The translations under genes and the position numbers were made by a program. Under the pieces are notes generated by a model. It was not told the DNA's origin, did not search any database, and was given only the letters and a program-made list of their open reading frames with translations. 38,946 nucleotides of DNA. Origin: a virus. Of the stretch, positions 19,094 through 38,946 are shown piece after piece. Where the stretch lies: positions 1 through 38,946 of the IMG/VR virus record IMGVR_UViG_3300023202_000230; one strand, written 5' to 3'. Numbering within the stretch: the stretch's first letter is position 1; every line of letters begins with the position of its first letter.

Positions 19094-20545
19094 GTGGTAT
19101 ATAGATATACTGTGGAATTCATCCCAATAGATTTAGACGATCTTAAAAAAGATTATTTGAACGGTGAATCTTTACGATCTCTTGCACGTAAACATAATAC
19201 TTCGAAATTAACTATAAAACGTAAGTTGAATAAAGCTGGAGTAGATGTTTTATCTTCTAGCGAATATATTGCTAAATATAATATTCAACATGCTAATAAA
19301 TCGTCAAATAGATATGAGTATAACGATGATAACATCATTAAGTTGTACCATGATGGAATGTCAATAAATCAGATAATTAATGAATTTGGTGTGTCTGAGC
19401 CTTCAGTTCGCAAATTAATAAACAACAAGAGAACTATTGATAAACAATATATATCAAATAGGTTTTGTTCTATTTATGAAAAGGTTAAACCAGAATTTAT
19501 AAACCACAGCCATTTACATGATCTGTACCATAATAAAAAATGGTCAATAACAGACATATCTAATTTTTATTCTTATGATGAAGAGGTTGTTAGAAGAGCT
19601 TTTATTAAATATGGCATAGACAGAAGAAATATGGCCGAAGCGTCGTTAGTGAATTGGGAGAAGAATAATTATAGATCATCATTGGAAAGGATAGTAAAGG
19701 TTATTCTAGATGATAATAGTATTAAAAATGAAAAGTTTGTGCATGGTGGCTACGAGTTTGATTTTTTAATTGATGATAGATTACTTGTTGAAGTTAATGG
19801 GCTGTTTTACCATTTGAATTGTGACAAGAAGGTGATCAGAGATAAAGACAAATACGATTATTGGTTGAATAATTTAAAGAACAAGTATGATTTTAAATTG
19901 TTGTGGGAGCATTTTGCCAAATCTAATGGCTCTTTATATGATCTTTTGAATTCATGGTTGTGCTTTAGAGTTATTACGGTCGATAAATCAAAAATTACAT
20001 TCAGTAGAATTTCTTATGGTGAGGCTGATTTATTTTGCAGGTCTTACCATTATCATAGGAAAACTAGAAAAGGTGATTATTATGGTGCTTTTTATAATAA
20101 TAAATTAATAGCTGTTGCGGTGTTTTCATCAGTGACTAGGAAGCAATCAGCCGACAGACTTGGCATTAGTTCAAATAGGATTAGAGAATTGTCTAGATTC
20201 TGCATAAATGGATCATATAGATCAGAAAACCTAGCTTCATTTATACTTTCAAGGTTTGAAAAGTTGTTTTCTATCAATAATTCGGATATTTGTTGCTTAT
20301 TGACTTTTGCTGATCAAACAGAGGGGCATGTTGGAACAATATACAGGGCTACTAATTGGAAGATCGATGGTATGTCAAGGGAATCATATTTTTATGAAAA
20401 AGATGGAATGAGATGGCATAAGAAGACTATTTGGCAAAATGCTAAATGCTTGGGAATGAAGGAATGTGAATTTTCCAACATGTTTGGATTAAATCAAATT
20501 AAAACTTTAAAGAAATATAGGTTTATCAAATATATTAATAAATGA
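19094..20545 (+). CDS. Homing endonuclease, HTH repeats plus Vsr-like nuclease
   Basis: The 483-residue protein begins with three helix-turn-helix repeats (about residues 10-45 LRSLARKHNTSKLTIKRKL, 75-112 INQIINEFGVSEPSVRKLI, 135-175 ITDISNFYSYDEEVVRRAF). Next is a Vsr/EDxHD-type nuclease core: GGYEFDFLIDDRLLVEVNGLFYHL, then DKYDYWLNNLKNKYDFKLLWEH. It ends in a GNAT-like C-terminal domain (YGAFYNNKLIAVAVF, IRELSRFCINGSYRSENLASF). It is expected to cut an allele lacking the gene near the gp13 locus. The start is uncertain: GTG 19094 or GTG 19112. It fits between gp13 and the next ORF with 11 nt and a 4-nt overlap. Confidence 0.82.
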   Translation: MVYRYTVEFIPIDLDDLKKDYLNGESLRSLARKHNTSKLTIKRKLNKAGVDVLSSSEYIAKYNIQHANKSSNRYEYNDDNIIKLYHDGMSINQIINEFGVSEPSVRKLINNKRTIDKQYISNRFCSIYEKVKPEFINHSHLHDLYHNKKWSITDISNFYSYDEEVVRRAFIKYGIDRRNMAEASLVNWEKNNYRSSLERIVKVILDDNSIKNEKFVHGGYEFDFLIDDRLLVEVNGLFYHLNCDKKVIRDKDKYDYWLNNLKNKYDFKLLWEHFAKSNGSLYDLLNSWLCFRVITVDKSKITFSRISYGEADLFCRSYHYHRKTRKGDYYGAFYNNKLIAVAVFSSVTRKQSADRLGISSNRIRELSRFCINGSYRSENLASFILSRFEKLFSINNSDICCLLTFADQTEGHVGTIYRATNWKIDGMSRESYFYEKDGMRWHKKTIWQNAKCLGMKECEFSNMFGLNQIKTLKKYRFIKYINK

Positions 20546-20787: not shown

Positions 20788-22440
20788 CTAATTTGTGCAC
20801 CATATTAGTTTGATATTGCCACAATCCCATAGTCTTCTATATCCATTGTTAAACATATTTTGTGCTTCTGACAAATTTGTATCGAAATTATTCAATCTGT
20901 GTTTTAACTTATGTTTTTGGTATTGTTTCCTGGTGTACAAATTTGATCCTTTGACATATTGATAATTTGGGCTAGTGTTTGTGGCATATTTAAATCCTAG
21001 ATTTTTATAAATATTATTGTCTGTGCTGCTATGATATCGCCTATCAACATAACAAATAATAAGTTTTGGTTTATGGTTGTTTAGAAATTCTTTGAATAGT
21101 TTATTGGCTCCTCCTGCAATTGTTGTGTTTAGTTGTGTTGCCAATCTGTTTAATTCCCACATGTTTTGTTTTTTAGTTAATCCAATATACTGAACTAGTT
21201 TATTTTTATAGAATAAACCATATTTCGCTGTTGATCCGATGTATCCTTGGATATGATTATCATTTAGAAATTTTTTTGATTCTTTTGGCGATAATGGTCT
21301 TACTGCGCATTGTTCAATAGGTATCTGATTGTTTATTAATTTTAGTTTATTATTTAATATTGAAAGTATTATTTCCTGTTTATTTGTTATATCATAATCT
21401 AATAAATGAATCAATCTGATATTTAATTTTTCACATCTTTTGGTTTTTTCTAAATGTTTTGTTTTATCTTGTTTGGATTCTAAATGGTTATATGAATGCC
21501 AATATATCCCATTAATTTCAATGGCTAAATCATGATTTGGTATTATTATATCAAGTTCTTTAGGATGTATTATAACTCTATTATTTATTTCGTAATTAAT
21601 ATTACTATCGCTTAAATAATTACATATAAATGAGTGGCATGATGATATATTACACTTTTGGCATCCTGATCCTTTTAAATGGACACCAGCATTTTGTGTG
21701 AAATTTCCATGGTATGGGCATGTTATTGTAATATCGTCTTTTAATTTAGCATATTTTGTTATGCTGTATTGATATTTATTTTGATGAACTTGATATGCTC
21801 TCTGGATGTAGTTTTTAATTCCTAGTGATAATCTTGTGCTAGCATTATTATAATGACATTTTGGACATCCATTTCCAACAAGATGGCGTGCTGGCCTTTG
21901 TTTGAATGCTCCGTGTTTTTTGCATATTAATTTTACTTTGGTATTACTATTTGTATATTCAACCTCATGATAATAATATTTATTACCATGAATCTGGATG
22001 GCCTTATGAATGAATTTACTTTTATTATCAGAAAATTTTTTAGATAATAAGTCATATTTGCATTTTTTGCAACCGTTGTTTCTGAGGTGCCCTTGTGGTG
22101 TTTGTTCAAATTCACCGTGGTATGGACATATTATGGTAACTTTAGTTAAGTTGTTTTGATATTTTACTTTAGAATAATCGTATTTATTATTGTGTTTCTT
22201 ATTTGCTTTTTGGATAAATTGTTGTGTGGTGCTGGAATTTTGTTTTTTTATTTTATCAATATGGCATTTGAAACATCCATTTTTACATGTTAGATGAGCA
22301 TTTGGACTTTGTTGAAATGGCCCATGCTTCTTGCATGTTATTGTTAATTTTTCTTTGTATTTTGTATAGATAGATTTAGAATAATCATACTTATTACCAT
22401 GAATCTCTTTTGCTTTTTGGATAAATTTTTTAGTATTCAT
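20788..22440 (-). CDS. Homing endonuclease with four zinc-knuckle repeats and Vsr-like nuclease
   Basis: The 550-residue protein has four N-terminal repeats of about 60 residues, each with the form F-I-x-KA-x-x-x-H-x-NKY-x-Y, then I-x-C-x-x-HG-x-F-x-Q and HL...GC-x-KC (DUF723-type DNA-binding repeats). A Vsr/EDxHD-like nuclease follows (ELDIIIPNHDLAIEINGIYWHS, KTKRCEKLNIRLIHLLDYD). The C-terminal GNAT-like domain has WELNRLATQLNTTIAGGANK and YVDRRYHSS, ending FNNGYRRLWDCGNIKLIW. ATG 22440 is preferred to TTG 22443. The gene lies antisense inside the neck gene region, its start facing the gene at 22463 across 22 nt. Confidence 0.88.
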   Translation of the reverse strand: MNTKKFIQKAKEIHGNKYDYSKSIYTKYKEKLTITCKKHGPFQQSPNAHLTCKNGCFKCHIDKIKKQNSSTTQQFIQKANKKHNNKYDYSKVKYQNNLTKVTIICPYHGEFEQTPQGHLRNNGCKKCKYDLLSKKFSDNKSKFIHKAIQIHGNKYYYHEVEYTNSNTKVKLICKKHGAFKQRPARHLVGNGCPKCHYNNASTRLSLGIKNYIQRAYQVHQNKYQYSITKYAKLKDDITITCPYHGNFTQNAGVHLKGSGCQKCNISSCHSFICNYLSDSNINYEINNRVIIHPKELDIIIPNHDLAIEINGIYWHSYNHLESKQDKTKHLEKTKRCEKLNIRLIHLLDYDITNKQEIILSILNNKLKLINNQIPIEQCAVRPLSPKESKKFLNDNHIQGYIGSTAKYGLFYKNKLVQYIGLTKKQNMWELNRLATQLNTTIAGGANKLFKEFLNNHKPKLIICYVDRRYHSSTDNNIYKNLGFKYATNTSPNYQYVKGSNLYTRKQYQKHKLKHRLNNFDTNLSEAQNMFNNGYRRLWDCGNIKLIWCTN

Positions 22441-22462
22441 CAATGATTTTCAAATTTAATAT

Positions 22463-28672: not shown

Positions 28673-28687
28673 AGTAAATATTATATG
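28673..28687 (+). repeat. Direct repeat, left copy, at start of homing endonuclease gene
   Basis: AGTAAATATTATATG, including the ATG of the endonuclease gene, matches the right copy at 30222-30236 in 14 of 15 positions. The pair brackets the endonuclease coding region exactly. Confidence 0.7.
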
Positions 28688-30223
28688 ATTTTATGGGATG
28701 AATCAGAAAAGTTATATAACAAGAAAAGAGATGAATTTAGAAGAATTGATAGAATATTAGTAAAATGTAGCAAGTGTGGCAATGTTAGATCTGTAAAATT
28801 TGTTACTTGGAAAAATCAAATGAGAATTATGGGTGATGATTTATGTGTGTCCTGTAGATCTTCCATTAATAGGATAAAGTATAAGGAATCATATTGCAAG
28901 TCTGATTTGGTAAGATCTAAATCAATATCTAACACAATGAAAAAGAAATGGTCAGATAAAGATATTAGAAATAAGTATGTTGATAGCATGAAGATGTCAG
29001 AGAATGATTTTATAAATAGATCTAAAGGTATACATGGCGACAAATACAAATATTCAAAAGTTGACTATGATGGATATCATAATAAAGTGTGTATTATTTG
29101 TCCAAACCATGGTGAATTTTATCAAACACCAGCAAGGCACTTAAATGGTGTTGGATGTAAAAAATGTGGTATAGATAGCACTAGACTTAAACTAGATGAT
29201 TTTATAAGTAAGTCTATAGCAGTTCATGGTGAAAAGTATAATTATGACTGTGTTCAATACACAAATACTCGCGATAAAGTCAAAATAGTGTGTACTGATC
29301 ACGGTCCTTTTTATCAATCACCAAACAGTCACCTGTCTGGTAGGGGATGCCCACATTGTTCTGTTTCGGTATCTTCTGGACATCTTGAGATACATGAATA
29401 TATTAAAAGCTTTTATTCTGGTGATGTTTTGATTAATGATAGGAAAGTTTTAAATGGTTTAGAAATTGATTTATATATTCCTGATAAATCGTTAGCTATT
29501 GAATTTAATGGACTTTATTGGCATTCATTTGGCGATACAGAAACTATAGAGGAAAAGAATAGACATAAGAATAAAAGAAACTTGTGTTTTAATAATGGAA
29601 TTGATTTGTTTTACGTGTGGGAGCATTTATGGGATAATAAAAAAGAAATTATAAAGTCAATGATACTTAGCAAATTAGGAATTAATAAAAGAATATTTGC
29701 TAGAAAATGTTCAATTGAGTATGTTGATAATAAAAGCTTTTCTAAGTTTATGAATAAAAATCATTTGCAAGGCAATACTGGATCTTCAATTAAGATTGGG
29801 TTGCGTCATGATGATGATATTGTTTGCTGTATAGGATTTAATCGTCATAAAACATTTGGGTGGGAGGTTAGCAGGTTTGCATCTAAACATGGCATTACTG
29901 TAGTTGGTGGTATGAGTAAGTTATTTAAGAAATTTATTAGAGATTATCGACCAACCCACATAATGACTTATGCTAGTTTAGATTATTCAAATGGCGAATC
30001 TTACCGTAAGGTTGGCTTTGATATTATTGATTATTCAAAACCTGGATATTTTTATTATAAGAATAGGAATGTGTTTTCACGGCAGCAATTTCAAAAGCAT
30101 AAGTTGTCTAAAAAGTTAGAAATTTATGATAGTAATTTGACTGAACATGAAAACATGTTTAACAATGGTTATAGAAGATGCTGGAATTGCGGAAACATGA
30201 AACTTCTTATGTCTGTGTGTTAG
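28685..30223 (+). CDS. Homing endonuclease with zinc repeats and Vsr-like nuclease
   Basis: This 512-residue protein begins with a zinc-ribbon-like segment (VKCSKCGN...LCVSC, about residues 26-58) and a NUMOD3-like stretch (SISNTMKKKWSDKDIRNKY). Two DUF723-type repeats follow (about 102-160 and 166-223; HGDKYKYSKVDY, ICPNHGEFYQTPARHL, GCKKC). The Vsr/EDxHD nuclease core has EIDLYIPDKSLAIEFNGLYWHS and RNLCFNNGIDLFYVWEHLW. The GNAT-like C-terminal domain ends FNNGYRRCWNCGNMKLL. It is inserted between the tube and gp26 genes; its TAG stop lies in the leader of gp26. No ribosome site; AT-rich start. Confidence 0.88.
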   Translation: MILWDESEKLYNKKRDEFRRIDRILVKCSKCGNVRSVKFVTWKNQMRIMGDDLCVSCRSSINRIKYKESYCKSDLVRSKSISNTMKKKWSDKDIRNKYVDSMKMSENDFINRSKGIHGDKYKYSKVDYDGYHNKVCIICPNHGEFYQTPARHLNGVGCKKCGIDSTRLKLDDFISKSIAVHGEKYNYDCVQYTNTRDKVKIVCTDHGPFYQSPNSHLSGRGCPHCSVSVSSGHLEIHEYIKSFYSGDVLINDRKVLNGLEIDLYIPDKSLAIEFNGLYWHSFGDTETIEEKNRHKNKRNLCFNNGIDLFYVWEHLWDNKKEIIKSMILSKLGINKRIFARKCSIEYVDNKSFSKFMNKNHLQGNTGSSIKIGLRHDDDIVCCIGFNRHKTFGWEVSRFASKHGITVVGGMSKLFKKFIRDYRPTHIMTYASLDYSNGESYRKVGFDIIDYSKPGYFYYKNRNVFSRQQFQKHKLSKKLEIYDSNLTEHENMFNNGYRRCWNCGNMKLLMSVC

Positions 30224-33066: not shown

Positions 33067-34284
33067 ATGTTTGGATTTGATGAAAAAATGTCAAAGGTGT
33101 TTTCTGTTGGTGATTCAATCACTGAACAAGAAGATGATGATTATAGGGATTGGACTAATATACCGGGACCAAAGAAGGGTAAGACATTAAATGATTTGAA
33201 AGGTGTTAAAGATCCATTGAATAAAGGTTGGACATTGGAAGAAGTAATATCTGCTTTGAAGCCTACATTAATAGCTGCGGCACGTAAGTACTCAACTCCA
33301 AATTTTGGCCAAGATGAAGCTTTGCTTGCAGCTATGGAAGCTGTAATTGATGCTGTTAAGTCTGATAAGGGTCTCGCACCTTTTACATCACATGTGTTCC
33401 CTTATATTATGTCTAAAACTAAACGTGCTGCTGCTGGAACTAGAGATTTTCCAACTTCTAATGTTTCTGGTGTTAAGCCTAATGTTGGTGGGAAGACTGA
33501 TTTTCTGAAGGGGTCGAGAGCGACAGTTAGTGCTGATACACCAGTTGATAATGAAGATGGCGAAGCGACGTATGTGTCTAGATTGTCTAGTGATGCTGAC
33601 TCTGGTACCAAAGCTGCAAAAGAGCAAATGGACACAGTAAGACTTTTGAGTAATTTGTTTACATCTGATGAAGTAGGACTAAGCGACCAGCAAAGAATCA
33701 TCATGCTTGCTACTTATGGTATAACTTCAGATGGTGATTATTCCGAGTCAGGCCCTAAAAGCACTACTGAAATAGCTGATGCATTTGGTGTTAGTAAGGT
33801 TAGAATATCTCAAGTAAGGAAAAAGGCACAAGAAAAGATCAAAAATTACTTGGATAGCAGAGGTTTGGGATCTCCTGAGGAAGCCATGTCTGCTTTTGGC
33901 ATTGAGGAGGCTAAACTAATAGCTGCGGCACGTGTTGTTTTAGAATCATTGCCTGAGATAATTAGATTAAATATTGATTTGATTAATGAACACCAAAACA
34001 TACCAACTAGAGTTGATATTGATGGAATAAGTCATAAAGCAATAGTGAAAATAAATTCTGACACTTTCGAAATTGATGATGTTGTCGCTGAGGGTAATGA
34101 GAGCGTGCTATATAAGATAGATAGGGGGAGTTTGTCTGAAGCTGTCGATATAGCCAAGGCTAGAACTGGTTCAGAATATTTTTCTGAGACTGCTTCAACA
34201 ATAATTAGAATGCACGCTCAACCAATTATTGGTATTGTTGATAGGTTGAATGATAATGAGGAAAATGAAGATTCTGACGATTAA
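33067..34284 (+). CDS. Sigma-70-like factor with extra C-terminal domain
   Basis: Residues about 58-122 look like sigma region 2 (LKPTLIAAARKY, DEALLAAMEAVIDAVKSD, PFTSHVFPYIMSKTKRA). Residues about 205-262 look like region 4: LSDQQRIIMLATYG and a helix-turn-helix STTEIADAFGVSKVRISQVRKKAQEKI. The 140 C-terminal residues are not recognised and end in an acidic tail. It should bind host RNA polymerase core and direct it to phage promoters. It is distinct from the gp55-like factor at 37651. GGAGG precedes ATG 33067. An alternative is a virion-packaged transcription factor. The family call is fairly safe; the promoters served are unknown. Confidence 0.72.
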   Translation: MFGFDEKMSKVFSVGDSITEQEDDDYRDWTNIPGPKKGKTLNDLKGVKDPLNKGWTLEEVISALKPTLIAAARKYSTPNFGQDEALLAAMEAVIDAVKSDKGLAPFTSHVFPYIMSKTKRAAAGTRDFPTSNVSGVKPNVGGKTDFLKGSRATVSADTPVDNEDGEATYVSRLSSDADSGTKAAKEQMDTVRLLSNLFTSDEVGLSDQQRIIMLATYGITSDGDYSESGPKSTTEIADAFGVSKVRISQVRKKAQEKIKNYLDSRGLGSPEEAMSAFGIEEAKLIAAARVVLESLPEIIRLNIDLINEHQNIPTRVDIDGISHKAIVKINSDTFEIDDVVAEGNESVLYKIDRGSLSEAVDIAKARTGSEYFSETASTIIRMHAQPIIGIVDRLNDNEENEDSDD

Positions 34285-34302: not shown

Positions 34303-36270
34303 GTGCAGATTATTATATCTGATAATCATACGTTGCGTTTGGCGCAGATATTCGAACTTCATGAAGAAGTTTTGAAGAAGCGTTTTAGTGTTAAGGATCC
34401 ACAGGCCAGACATAAGATAAGCATGTATCGTGGGTCTTGGGATGGTTATCATAGGTTTTATGATGCACAAAATCAGATTTTATCTAGAGGATATTTAAAG
34501 GATGTTATAGAATTATGTATTGAAAATGATTTCCCGTTTGATATTGTTGATAATAGGTCAAAGTCTAAATACCCTGTTCCAGCTCCTGGGTCTTTCGATA
34601 ATCAACTTATTGATGCTGAGATAAATGGTAGAAAAATAATAGCTCATGAGCATCAAATGAGATGCTGGAATGCAGTATGCAAAGCATCTCAACATCCAAT
34701 TTATGAGGTTTGCACTCACTTTCATCCAACTGGTGGTGGAAAGTCATTGATGATGGCTGGAATTGTTAAATTAATTAGATGCCCGACAGTTATAATTACA
34801 GAACAATCTATAGTTTTAAATCAAATAACTAAGAGCTTAAAGTTGTTTAATGTAGTTCATCATGATGATATTGGAGAGTTTTATTCTGGTAAAATGCCAG
34901 AAGGTAATGTGGTATGTGTTGGTTCAATAGCTGCATTACAAACACCGAAAAAACCACAGTGGAAAAAATTTGATGTAAAAATATCAACACTGAAAAAAGA
35001 TTTTAATAATATGTATGTTAAAAATATTGATAAATTGAAGTCTATAATGTCAGTAAAAGCAATTGATGCTTGGCGTAGATCATGTGTGCTGGACTATGTT
35101 GAGGATTTATATGATAAAAATACTAAGAAAAATAAAAAAGATAGAATTGATTTATTTAGTATAGTTCCTGAGCATAAGGATTGGAATGAAGTTGTAAATG
35201 ATGTTGCCGACAATATTAGTTTTTTGATTAAAAATGATTTGGATGTAATATCTTCTATTATTGGTGATAGTAATGTATCTATATGGAAAGATACTGAATA
35301 CATTCATGATTTTTATGATAATCAATTAAAGAGGGCATTTGTTTTATGGTATTCTTATGAAAAGAAGAGGTATTTTGATATAGCAATGAAATCGTATTAC
35401 ACCAGATTGAAAAAGTGCAGAGAATTACAACATATGGTTTCTGAATGTGAATTGTTATTAGTTGACGAAATGGATAATGCTGCATCAAATAATTATGTTC
35501 CACTTTTTAAAGAGTGGTTTAGTGGCAGGTATGTACATGGTTTTAGTGGTACTCCTTATGACCCAGACAAACCAGTAGAGGAAATGCGCTTACGTGGTTA
35601 TTTTGGTCCTATTTCATCAAGATCTGAGAGGAGAGAACTAGAAGAGATAGGCCAGATTCAGCCGGTAAAGTATTATATGATGCAATTTGGTGAGATTAAC
35701 CCAAAAGATAAGACAGCATTTGATGTAGCTGAACGAAATATAATCATTGATAATCCAGAGTTTCATATAGTAATTAAAAAGTCAATAGAAAATTGGCCAA
35801 ATGAAAAACATTTATTGATTATTGATACTTCTAATGTTGAAGATCTTGGTAAAAAATTAAACGAAATATTGCCAAATTCTGCTTTTGTTTATGGAAAAGT
35901 TCCGTTTAAAAAGAGGCAAACAATGATTAAAAGTTTTGAAGATGGTGATATCAATGTGCTGATAGTTAGTAAAGTTGGTAAGAGAGGCATGGATTTGGGC
36001 GGTGGTGCCCACAATATGCATATTATTGGTGGTGGAAAAAATAAAAGCAATTTTGACCAGATTATTGGCAGGGGAGTTCGCAATAATGATAGGGGTTGGG
36101 CCAGGGTGTTTGACTATTATTACACTGGAAATCATTACCTTTTGAGACATTCTCGGAAGAGGTTGAATTTTATTTGTAATATGGGATATCAGGCCAAAAT
36201 AATATTTGGCAATGTAGTTATTGATGCTAGAAAATTCATTTCATCAAGGTATAAAATGCCTAAATCATAG
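34303..36270 (+). CDS. uvsW: UvsW-like SF2 helicase
   Basis: The 655-residue protein has an N-terminal accessory domain (1-110), Walker A HPTGGGKSLMM (141-151), motif Ia PTVIITEQ, motif II LLLVDEMDNA (DEMD at 388-391), motif III SGTPYDP (415-421), motif V VSKVGKRGMDLG and motif VI QIIGRGVR (586-593). T4 UvsW unwinds branched DNA and R-loops and turns off origin replication late in infection. About 150 residues of charged helical sequence separate motif Ib from motif II, longer than expected. The start is GTG 34303; no in-frame ATG is nearby. Confidence 0.88.
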   Translation: MQIIISDNHTLRLAQIFELHEEVLKKRFSVKDPQARHKISMYRGSWDGYHRFYDAQNQILSRGYLKDVIELCIENDFPFDIVDNRSKSKYPVPAPGSFDNQLIDAEINGRKIIAHEHQMRCWNAVCKASQHPIYEVCTHFHPTGGGKSLMMAGIVKLIRCPTVIITEQSIVLNQITKSLKLFNVVHHDDIGEFYSGKMPEGNVVCVGSIAALQTPKKPQWKKFDVKISTLKKDFNNMYVKNIDKLKSIMSVKAIDAWRRSCVLDYVEDLYDKNTKKNKKDRIDLFSIVPEHKDWNEVVNDVADNISFLIKNDLDVISSIIGDSNVSIWKDTEYIHDFYDNQLKRAFVLWYSYEKKRYFDIAMKSYYTRLKKCRELQHMVSECELLLVDEMDNAASNNYVPLFKEWFSGRYVHGFSGTPYDPDKPVEEMRLRGYFGPISSRSERRELEEIGQIQPVKYYMMQFGEINPKDKTAFDVAERNIIIDNPEFHIVIKKSIENWPNEKHLLIIDTSNVEDLGKKLNEILPNSAFVYGKVPFKKRQTMIKSFEDGDINVLIVSKVGKRGMDLGGGAHNMHIIGGGKNKSNFDQIIGRGVRNNDRGWARVFDYYYTGNHYLLRHSRKRLNFICNMGYQAKIIFGNVVIDARKFISSRYKMPKS

Positions 36271-37641
36271 ACTTAGTATAAATTTATCATATCCTGCGTC
36301 ATATATTATTCCATAATCATTTTTTAATATATCTGTTTGCAATTGGTGCTTTGACCATATTTTGTCTTTTTTAAAATATTTATAATCTGGTTTTGTTGTC
36401 TCTATATATTTAAAATTAAATTTTATAAGTATATCATCAATGGGATATCTTTTGTCTGAGTATGACAATATTGATTTTGGTTTGTATTCTTTTATAAATG
36501 AATTTAATAATTTTTTTAATCCATTAGTTATTATATAATTTGTTTTGGTTGTATATCTATTTATTTTATAATGGCCGTCTGCAATTTTATTAAATGATAA
36601 CGTAGATACTAGGGTATTATTATCAAATAATCCATAGCATATTTGTGAATTTGATTTTCCTAGTATGTTATTGCATTCGCAAAATTTTGAGTTTGTTTTA
36701 TTTGGTATTGTTGAAATTTGGCATTGCGCTGCAAATATTTTGTTTGATTTATTGAGATAATGTTTTATGATTGATTTTACTATATTTTTACTATTTGACC
36801 ATTCATATTCAAATATTTGTATTAGTTTTATCGAGTTATTTTGTGCTTTTATAGCTTTTTCTTGATGGTTATTTTTGTTGTTGTGCCACCAAAGACCATG
36901 ATATTCAATGCCTATTCTATTTTGTGGTAGATAGCAGTCTATTTCTAGTGGTTGAATTGCCGATCTATCGTTTATTATCAATTCGCAGTCAGTTATTGAC
37001 CTAATGAAATCTATAATTTCTTGCTGTGGCTTTGATATTATTGATGGACATTTTTGACATCCTTTACCCGATAAATGATTACTTGGCGTTTGAATGAATG
37101 AGCCATGTGTTTGGCATATTATAGTGCATGGTTTCTTATATCCTTTGTAATTACAATATTTATATTTATAATTATGTATTGAATTTGCTTTTTCTATGAA
37201 TTTTTCAAAAGGTAATGTTAATTTTTTGGATGTGCCTTCTGTACTGCATTTGGGACATTTGCTTCTTGTCAGATGATTGCAAGCTGTTTGTTTAAAATCT
37301 CCATGTTTTGGGCATGTTATCGTTATTGGCGTATGTTTGTAATCTATATAAACAGATTTATCATAAATATATTTATTATTATGTATTATGGATGCCCTTT
37401 TGATGAATTTTTCGGTTGTGTATTTATAATTTCTTGACAATTTTTCATTTGCACATTTCTTACACCCACTAGTGTTTAGATGATGTCTAGGATATTGTGT
37501 AAATCTGCCGTGTTTTTTACATATTATTGTGATTTTTGTTCTACTATTAATATATTTAGTCTCATGGTATAAATATTTATCACCATGTATCTGTATTGAT
37601 TTATTGATAAAGATTGTTGTATTGATTTGGTTATCTTTCGT
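36265..37641 (-). CDS. Homing endonuclease with Vsr-like nuclease; start codon appears to be ACG
   Basis: Three zinc repeats (IHGDKYLYHETKY..., IHNNKYIYDKSVY..., IHNYKYKYCNYKG..., each with ICKKHG/TCPKHG/ICQTHG and GC-x-KC-like knuckles) precede a Vsr/EDxHD core (PLEIDCYLPQNRIGIEYHGLWWH, IKLIQIFEYEW) and a shortened GNAT-like C-terminal domain (YKINRYTTKTNYIITNG, SYSDKRYP). The frame is open to 37641, but the only NTG codon is TTG 37440, which would cut off the first repeat. The codon where ATG is expected, after TATATTATAT, is ACG at 37641-37639. It may be poorly translated or inactivated. It is convergent with uvsW (6-nt overlap) and divergent from the sigma gene at 9 nt. Confidence 0.75.
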   Translation of the reverse strand, partial: TKDNQINTTIFINKSIQIHGDKYLYHETKYINSRTKITIICKKHGRFTQYPRHHLNTSGCKKCANEKLSRNYKYTTEKFIKRASIIHNNKYIYDKSVYIDYKHTPITITCPKHGDFKQTACNHLTRSKCPKCSTEGTSKKLTLPFEKFIEKANSIHNYKYKYCNYKGYKKPCTIICQTHGSFIQTPSNHLSGKGCQKCPSIISKPQQEIIDFIRSITDCELIINDRSAIQPLEIDCYLPQNRIGIEYHGLWWHNNKNNHQEKAIKAQNNSIKLIQIFEYEWSNSKNIVKSIIKHYLNKSNKIFAAQCQISTIPNKTNSKFCECNNILGKSNSQICYGLFDNNTLVSTLSFNKIADGHYKINRYTTKTNYIITNGLKKLLNSFIKEYKPKSILSYSDKRYPIDDILIKFNFKYIETTKPDYKYFKKDKIWSKHQLQTDILKNDYGIIYDAGYDKFILSL

Positions 37642-37650
37642 ATATAATAT

Positions 37651-38946
37651 ATGGCCGAAGAGAAGTCTAAATCAAAAAAACGCAAGAAAAATATGTATTT
37701 CGATAATGAAGCTGTCGAAAAATTGTTAGACAGATATGTTAAAAGGGGTTGTGTCGATGTATACCTACGTGATGAAATCATGTCTCATGCTGAGGAGTTA
37801 ATTAGGCAAATAATTAGAGCGCACAATTTTGAGTATATTTTCCCTGGAAGGGATCAATCTTCATTTGGTGAATTATTTCAGGTGGCTTGGTGTGTGAATC
37901 CTGATTCAATTGTATTGACTGATAAGGGATTTAGTAAAATTGGCTCATTGTTGGGCGATAACGATGTTGGTGATTGCAATTTCATGATCTACGATGGAAA
38001 TCAATTAGAAAAATCAACTAAATATATTAAACTACCTGAGCAGCCAACTAAAATCATCACTACAAAATTTGGCTATAATCTTGAAGCATCTCTGGATCAT
38101 CCTTTGCCAATATTTAGAGATGGCAGAATTATTAGAGAAAAAGTTGATAATATAAAAGTTGGAGATTGTTTATCGATTCATTATGGAATGAATGTTTTTG
38201 GAGATTGTGATGAAATCGATTTTGTCCCAGAAATTACTGGTGGAACGACATATATGTGGAATCCACCAGCAAAATGGAATGAAGAATTAGCGTATTTTGT
38301 TGGGTTGTTTGTTTCTGAAGGATCTTATGAAGACTATCGTGCCACAATCTATAATGATGAAGATGAAATAAAACGTTTTCTGCTAAACAACAACATTGGG
38401 TTAAATGTTAGATATTCGCATTGTAATGGTGGAAGATTTACGATTGGTTGTAAAAGATTTTGTGAATTTTTGTCATGGTTGAAAGTTGATCGCGATTGTT
38501 ATGGAAAGTGCATACCTACCCAAATAATGAAATGTAGTGAAAATATTGTTGCTTCTTTTTTAAGAGGTCTTTTTGATGGTGATGGCCACTCTAACAGAAA
38601 TAATGGGAATGTTGGATATACTTCTACTTCCAGAAATCTGATAAATGAATTGAGAATGGTATTATCAAATTTTGGTATTTTGACTAAATTGTCTGAGACT
38701 AAGCGTTATAAAACTAATTTTAGCAACAATTGCAGACCCATGATACAGCTGTTGTTATCAAGCGTTGATTCTTCTATCTTTTATGAAAAGATTGGGTTTG
38801 GAATTGAGAGAAAACAACAAAATCAAGCCAAATTATCAAACAAGTGCTTTAGGCAAGTTTATATAGACGTTAAAAAATTGATTAGAAAAACAGTTGATAA
38901 TATCGATGTTTCTTTGAAAAAACTTGGATTATCAACTGTTTTAAAT
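37651..38946 (+). CDS. 55: Late sigma factor gp55-like, interrupted by an intein (3' partial)
   Basis: The first 80 residues have a basic tail (SKSKKRKKNMYFDNEAVEKL) and then a sigma region 2-like helix set: LRDEIMSHAEELIRQIIRAH, NFEYIFPGRDQSSF, GELFQVAW. This agrees with gp55-type factors of T4-like phages (YF...; NII...FKF). At FQVAW, in the region 2.2 equivalent that contacts the polymerase beta' subunit, an intein begins at Cys81 and is still open at the window edge. The rest of the factor must lie downstream. Location next to uvsW is common in T4-like phages. The start is AT-rich without a ribosome site. Confidence 0.7.
   Translation, partial: MAEEKSKSKKRKKNMYFDNEAVEKLLDRYVKRGCVDVYLRDEIMSHAEELIRQIIRAHNFEYIFPGRDQSSFGELFQVAWCVNPDSIVLTDKGFSKIGSLLGDNDVGDCNFMIYDGNQLEKSTKYIKLPEQPTKIITTKFGYNLEASLDHPLPIFRDGRIIREKVDNIKVGDCLSIHYGMNVFGDCDEIDFVPEITGGTTYMWNPPAKWNEELAYFVGLFVSEGSYEDYRATIYNDEDEIKRFLLNNNIGLNVRYSHCNGGRFTIGCKRFCEFLSWLKVDRDCYGKCIPTQIMKCSENIVASFLRGLFDGDGHSNRNNGNVGYTSTSRNLINELRMVLSNFGILTKLSETKRYKTNFSNNCRPMIQLLLSSVDSSIFYEKIGFGIERKQQNQAKLSNKCFRQVYIDVKKLIRKTVDNIDVSLKKLGLSTVLN
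37891..38946 (+). mobile_element. Intein with apparently intact LAGLIDADG endonuclease (partial)
   Basis: Block A is CVNPDSIVLTDKGFSKIGSL starting at Cys81, and block B is ASLDHPLPIF (Ser in place of the usual Thr, His present). Two LAGLIDADG helices follow: YFVGLFVSEGSY (about 38293-38328) and FLRGLFDGDGHS (about 38555-38592), each with its acidic residue. A DNA-recognition segment YTSTSRNLINELRMVLSNFGI follows the second. 352 residues are seen; the C-terminal splicing block lies past the window. Confidence 0.88.

Follow-up and report, generated by a model that had tools for sequence, protein, structure and literature searches.

A probable phage sigma factor gene interrupted in region 2 by a predicted self-splicing LAGLIDADG intein

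Introduction

What protein is encoded by a viral gene that opens like a sigma factor and then runs into an intein, and does such an insert simply splice itself out or does it time infection? The window analysed here, a whole IMG/VR virus record of 38,946 bases, ends within such a gene, an ORF of 432 codons (37651-38946, + strand, ATG start) whose frame is open up to the contig end and which runs past the end of the record. An initial annotation read it as the late sigma factor gp55 with an intein at FQVAW/C, in the equivalent of region 2.2, and proposed that no functional late sigma factor would exist until splicing. With high confidence, the gene is taken here to encode a phage sigma factor and to carry, within region 2, a class 1 LAGLIDADG intein that probably splices itself out constitutively and homes.

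The interrupted gene

The intein starts at Cys81, and the NCBIfam intein_Nterm profile matches at 25.6 bits against a curated cut-off of 24.5. Cys81 opens a block-A-like sequence (Table 1) and thereby supplies the nucleophile-first N-terminal splicing block of a class 1 intein. The Pfam LAGLIDADG_3 profile matches the same ORF at 64.7 bits (cut-off 22.5), and the acidic residues are retained in both helices, as in a LAGLIDADG homing endonuclease. The initial description, a sigma-like protein entered by an intein at FQVAW/C and two intact LAGLIDADG helices, was borne out, and both helices can be read in the translation. Block F/G, the C-extein and the +1 residue of this copy lie beyond the contig end; by analogy with the relatives described below, its 3' end is presumably intact. 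With a perfect inverted repeat at the contig terminus, the last contig bases could be an assembly effect.

Table 1. Features of the intein-bearing gene and its upstream neighbours (window coordinates)
Feature	Position	Strand	Basis
Second sigma-like ORF, 405 aa, uninterrupted	33067..34284	+	TIGR02937 E 1.5e-8; Sigma70_r4 E 6e-5; fold
UvsW-like helicase, in most relatives next to the sigma gene	34303..36270	+	phrog_16 E 3e-47; synteny
Free-standing homing endonuclease, located between the helicase and the sigma gene	36265..37440	-	phrog_559 E 1e-73
N-extein, sigma factor residues 1-80, ending ...SSFGELFQVAW	37651..37890	+	aligned with L004/L005
Site-a intein, residues 1-352, truncated where the contig ends	37891..38946	+	intein_Nterm from residue 81
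Block A, CVNPDSIVLTDKG, with Cys1	37891..37929	+	sequence and intein_Nterm match
First LAGLIDADG helix, ELAYFVGLFVSEG	38284..38322	+	read in translation and alignment
Second LAGLIDADG helix, FLRGLFDGDG	38557..38586	+	LAGLIDADG_3 E 9e-18
Perfect inverted repeat at contig end (arms of 15 nt, loop of 26 nt)	38887..38942	.	sequence

Fold and sequence of the extein

A structural model was built from 49 intein-free relatives (pLDDT 86, pTM 0.57), and it has the fold of sigma-70 region 2. All PDB matches listed by VIA-align were sigma factors; T4 gp55 (PDB 7d7c chain F) ranked first, with Z 13.1 and rmsd 6.2 over 126 residues of the 137-residue chain, a ranking to be read for a helical protein in which other sigma factors score closely behind 7d7c_F. 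SigmaS superimposed with an rmsd of 2.2 over 93 residues. Nearly all listed Foldseek matches were likewise sigma factors, at modest E-values (best 5e-3), and the named BFVD matches were mostly phage sigma factors.

The sequence libraries (Pfam, PHROG and NCBIfam) gave the extein no name and no gp55 match; the only sequence-family match to sigma-70 was that of one relative, L009, to phrog_351 (E 0.005). Profile-profile comparison by hhalign with 18 T4-like gp55 sequences found no homology (probability 0.2 percent), and neither this comparison nor the phrog_234 profile placed the extein in the gp55 family. A gapless block, SQ..........YIKKE in the extein and TQ..........RIKKE in gp55, was marginal, being reached by 2.5-7% of column shuffles. 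The extein had no tblastn match in GenBank phages, and its profile gave chance matches only among PDB sequences. The model thus supports a sigma factor with a predicted gp55-like fold; of the name gp55 given initially, the part that concerns fold is supported and the part that concerns sequence family is not. From alignment by eye, FxDLxQxAWxQIExxLYKF would correspond to region 2.2 and KVFNMWSQ to the start of region 2.3, and on this basis, together with the fold match, the insertion would fall at the equivalent of region 2.2, as described initially. A Cys-rich, zinc-ribbon-like insert was seen in sigma region 2 of many relatives (L019, L020, L021 and L022), between LYKY and the motif at the second insertion site described next.

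Relatives and the two insertion sites

A scan with the whole ORF returned contigs L004 and L005, and scans with extein and intein alignments returned about a hundred relatives, a set that may omit records very near the window's own; insertion sites were assigned by mapping profile matches onto the relatives' ORFs. Most relatives are without any intein. The exact junction of the window (site a) was found in eight other contigs (L100, L103, L099, L104, L112, L105, L106 and L136), in which the intein is 424-445 aa long. All eight extend through the C-terminal junction, HN/C in seven and HN/T in one (L099), with sigma C-extein next to it, and intein_Cterm is above its cut-off in L100, L106, L136 and L112. 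The initial annotation had suggested looking for the same insertion in gp55 homologues, and for a C-terminal splicing block and sigma C-extein downstream; the relatives supply all of these, at the identical junction.

A related intein occupies a second position (site b), between FN(M/L)(W/F) and SQ, in 12 further contigs, with Ser as the +1 residue. Site b lies 23 codons 3' of site a in the closest relatives and 23 or more overall. In two of the eight site-a contigs (L104 and L112) both sites are occupied in one gene, which in each case is cut by a contig end. The window's closest relatives belong to site b: the N-exteins of L004 and L005 are 86-92% identical to that of the window (92% over 66 residues for L005), and their inteins sit at FNMW/C...SHN/SQ, 23 codons downstream of the window's site.

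Several further observations concern these contigs. One scan of genome contigs gave a single locus, L136, whose contig sits in a Candidatus Lokiarchaeota bin and has a UvsW-like neighbour beside the site-a sigma intein; this may be a misbinned phage contig. In L017 the second LAGLIDADG helix of the sigma intein is degenerate and the remainder complete, which suggests a dead endonuclease. In L011, L060, L066, L072 and L112 the intein profile also matches long ORFs that lie downstream of the sigma gene, a place where L004 has a terminase large subunit.

Phylogeny and movement of the intein

A maximum likelihood tree places all sigma inteins in a single clade (bootstrap 100), separate from the terminase inteins, and within it two groups are supported, one for site a (98) and one for site b (97). 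The site-a group contains every site-a intein, including that of the window, and also the site-b intein of L018, whose placement is weakly resolved; the remaining site-b inteins make up the other group. The window and L005 share 92% identity in the extein and 39% in the intein (that of L005 being at site b), compared with 85% and 68% for the pair L004 and L005. Intein identity therefore does not track extein identity, and the inteins of the window and L005 are not one vertically inherited insertion. The sigma inteins appear to share one ancestor and to occupy two sites between which the element has crossed; the simplest account of the tree would be at least one ancient between-site transfer, with a second in L018.

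These results also bear on whether the window's junction might be an artefact, in which two Trp codons were brought together, by misassembly or by a 69-nt deletion, and a site-b intein came to lie beside VAW. In line with this, both junctions are W/C and the closest relatives carry their intein at site b; however, the other contigs with a site-a junction keep the between-site sequence intact downstream of the intein, and the window intein groups with site-a inteins. A deletion artefact is contradicted by both lines of evidence and was rejected as extremely improbable.

The target sequences of the two sites can be compared in alleles that have no intein. Site a then has the sequence [W/Y]-x-Q-[I/L]-E, site b has F-N-[M/L/F]-[W/F]-S-Q, and W-[C/S]-Q-[I/V] is often common to both. 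Over 33 nt, the flanks of the two sites share a mean of 15.3 matches against 8.8 at other codon-aligned positions in the 49 intein-free genes, a null that ignores protein-level conservation at both sites. The likeness differs by record: in several of them, roughly one in ten of the other positions matches equally well. Similar target sequences may have helped the intein to move between sites.

The +1 residue and the integrity of the window copy

At site a, the +1 residue of intein-free relatives is V, C, I, M, T or A, and it is C or T in all eight intein carriers. V, I, M and A, which are found in 32 of the 49 intein-free genes, are unable to serve as splicing nucleophile. L004 and L005, the two closest N-extein relatives, have the non-nucleophilic Met there. 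A +1 proline is reported to block splicing of an MCM intein (PMC10643990). It might be supposed, then, that the window copy is broken, by truncation of the intein or sigma gene or by a non-nucleophilic +1 residue, so that no sigma factor is made from it and a second sigma-like gene substitutes. The position of the 3' end past the contig end, the Met of the closest relatives and the presence of an uninterrupted second sigma-like ORF would fit; against these stand a frame open for 432 codons, both endonuclease acidic residues kept, and C or T at +1 in each of the site-a carriers. A broken copy is judged very unlikely.

For the intact intein, the predicted course is as follows. The whole precursor, sigma factor and intein, would be translated; the intein would excise by way of Cys1, its terminal Asn and the residue that opens the C-extein (predicted to be Cys in the window copy), and the exteins ...FQVAW and CQIE...LYK... 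would be joined into a continuous sigma factor. In mixed infection the endonuclease would cut uninterrupted copies of the gene, and repair would copy the intein in. Such splicing and cutting probably occur.

Neighbouring genes and the question of timing

The window has T4-like tail genes together with gp32-like, UvsY-like, exonuclease and helicase genes. The second sigma-like ORF, two genes upstream of the intein-bearing gene, scores below the curated cut-off of TIGR02937 and just below that of Sigma70_r4; its model has pLDDT 68, and all of its listed fold matches are sigma factors. It shows no homology to the extein by hhalign. L004, L005, L026 and L100 also have this gene, adjacent to the helicase and sigma gene, and in L004, L005 and L100 the gap between helicase and sigma gene is too small for a homing endonuclease. 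The endonuclease of the window (36265-37440) has a reading frame that continues upstream past the listed TTG codon and almost reaches the start of the sigma gene (36265-37650, - strand), and its true start is uncertain. It is one of three free-standing phrog_559 homing endonucleases in 39 kb, the others being at 20788-22443 (-) and 28685-30223 (+). Elsewhere, ORF 19094-20545 joins a C-terminal Mom-like DNA modification match (phrog_1384, E 2e-27) to an HNH-endonuclease-like N-terminal part.

The description of the sigma factor as late found no support. The T4-type late promoter TATAAATA was not enriched in the window (9 found, 8.4 expected; other promoter motifs are possible), and a simple count of upstream k-mers gave no signal. 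Profiles for gp33 and gp45 (phrog_254 and phrog_223) matched none of 10 records, which may be fragments, and the same searches also matched no control genome. The proposal that no functional late sigma factor exists before splicing overreaches, since with an uninterrupted second sigma-like gene upstream, blocking one sigma factor need not block late transcription.

A related reading is conditional splicing, by which the intein would act as a post-translational switch timing sigma activity. Both sites are in the conserved core of the sigma factor, and an insert left unspliced there should prevent function; conditional splicing is also reported for other inteins (PMC5790916). However, most relatives have no intein, phage inteins are usually placed in conserved motifs (PMC5050341), and the window also has its second sigma-like gene. 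Conditional splicing is considered unlikely, and the further step, that regulated splicing sets the switch of the phage's transcription programme with the intein as timing device, quite unlikely; redox control of the splicing, as raised initially, is speculation.

The most likely reading is a selfish intein that splices constitutively. Constitutive splicing with homing is the default for an element of this kind, and its patchy presence among relatives fits.

Relation to known systems and significance

Like T4 gp55, its top fold match, the extein is phage-encoded and stands in a T4-like gene set; it differs in the absence of detectable sequence-profile homology and of T4 late promoter enrichment in the window, and its family differs in the ribbon-like insert of some members. 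The intein itself is of a known kind. It has the splicing and endonuclease domains of the LAGLIDADG inteins of phage terminases, helicases and DNA polymerases, genes that hold its best GenBank phage matches (24-28% identity); unlike these, the sigma inteins have a sigma factor as host gene and form their own clade. Haloarchaeal MCM inteins are reported also to occupy multiple neighbouring sites in one gene, with splicing blocked there by a wrong +1 residue (PMC10643990), whereas their host is an archaeal helicase, and the sigma sites hold inteins of one clade with flanks alike.

Text searches of a library of open-access papers found no sigma-factor intein described; this agrees with the initial remark that sigma-factor inteins are not commonly described. 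Within that library, what is new is the host gene and its sites. Sigma factors thus join the proteins invaded by inteins, with two core sites, genes in which both are occupied and one apparent site switch. They provide a natural set for examining how inteins move between sites of the same gene, and whether infection timing changes when a master transcription factor carries an insert.
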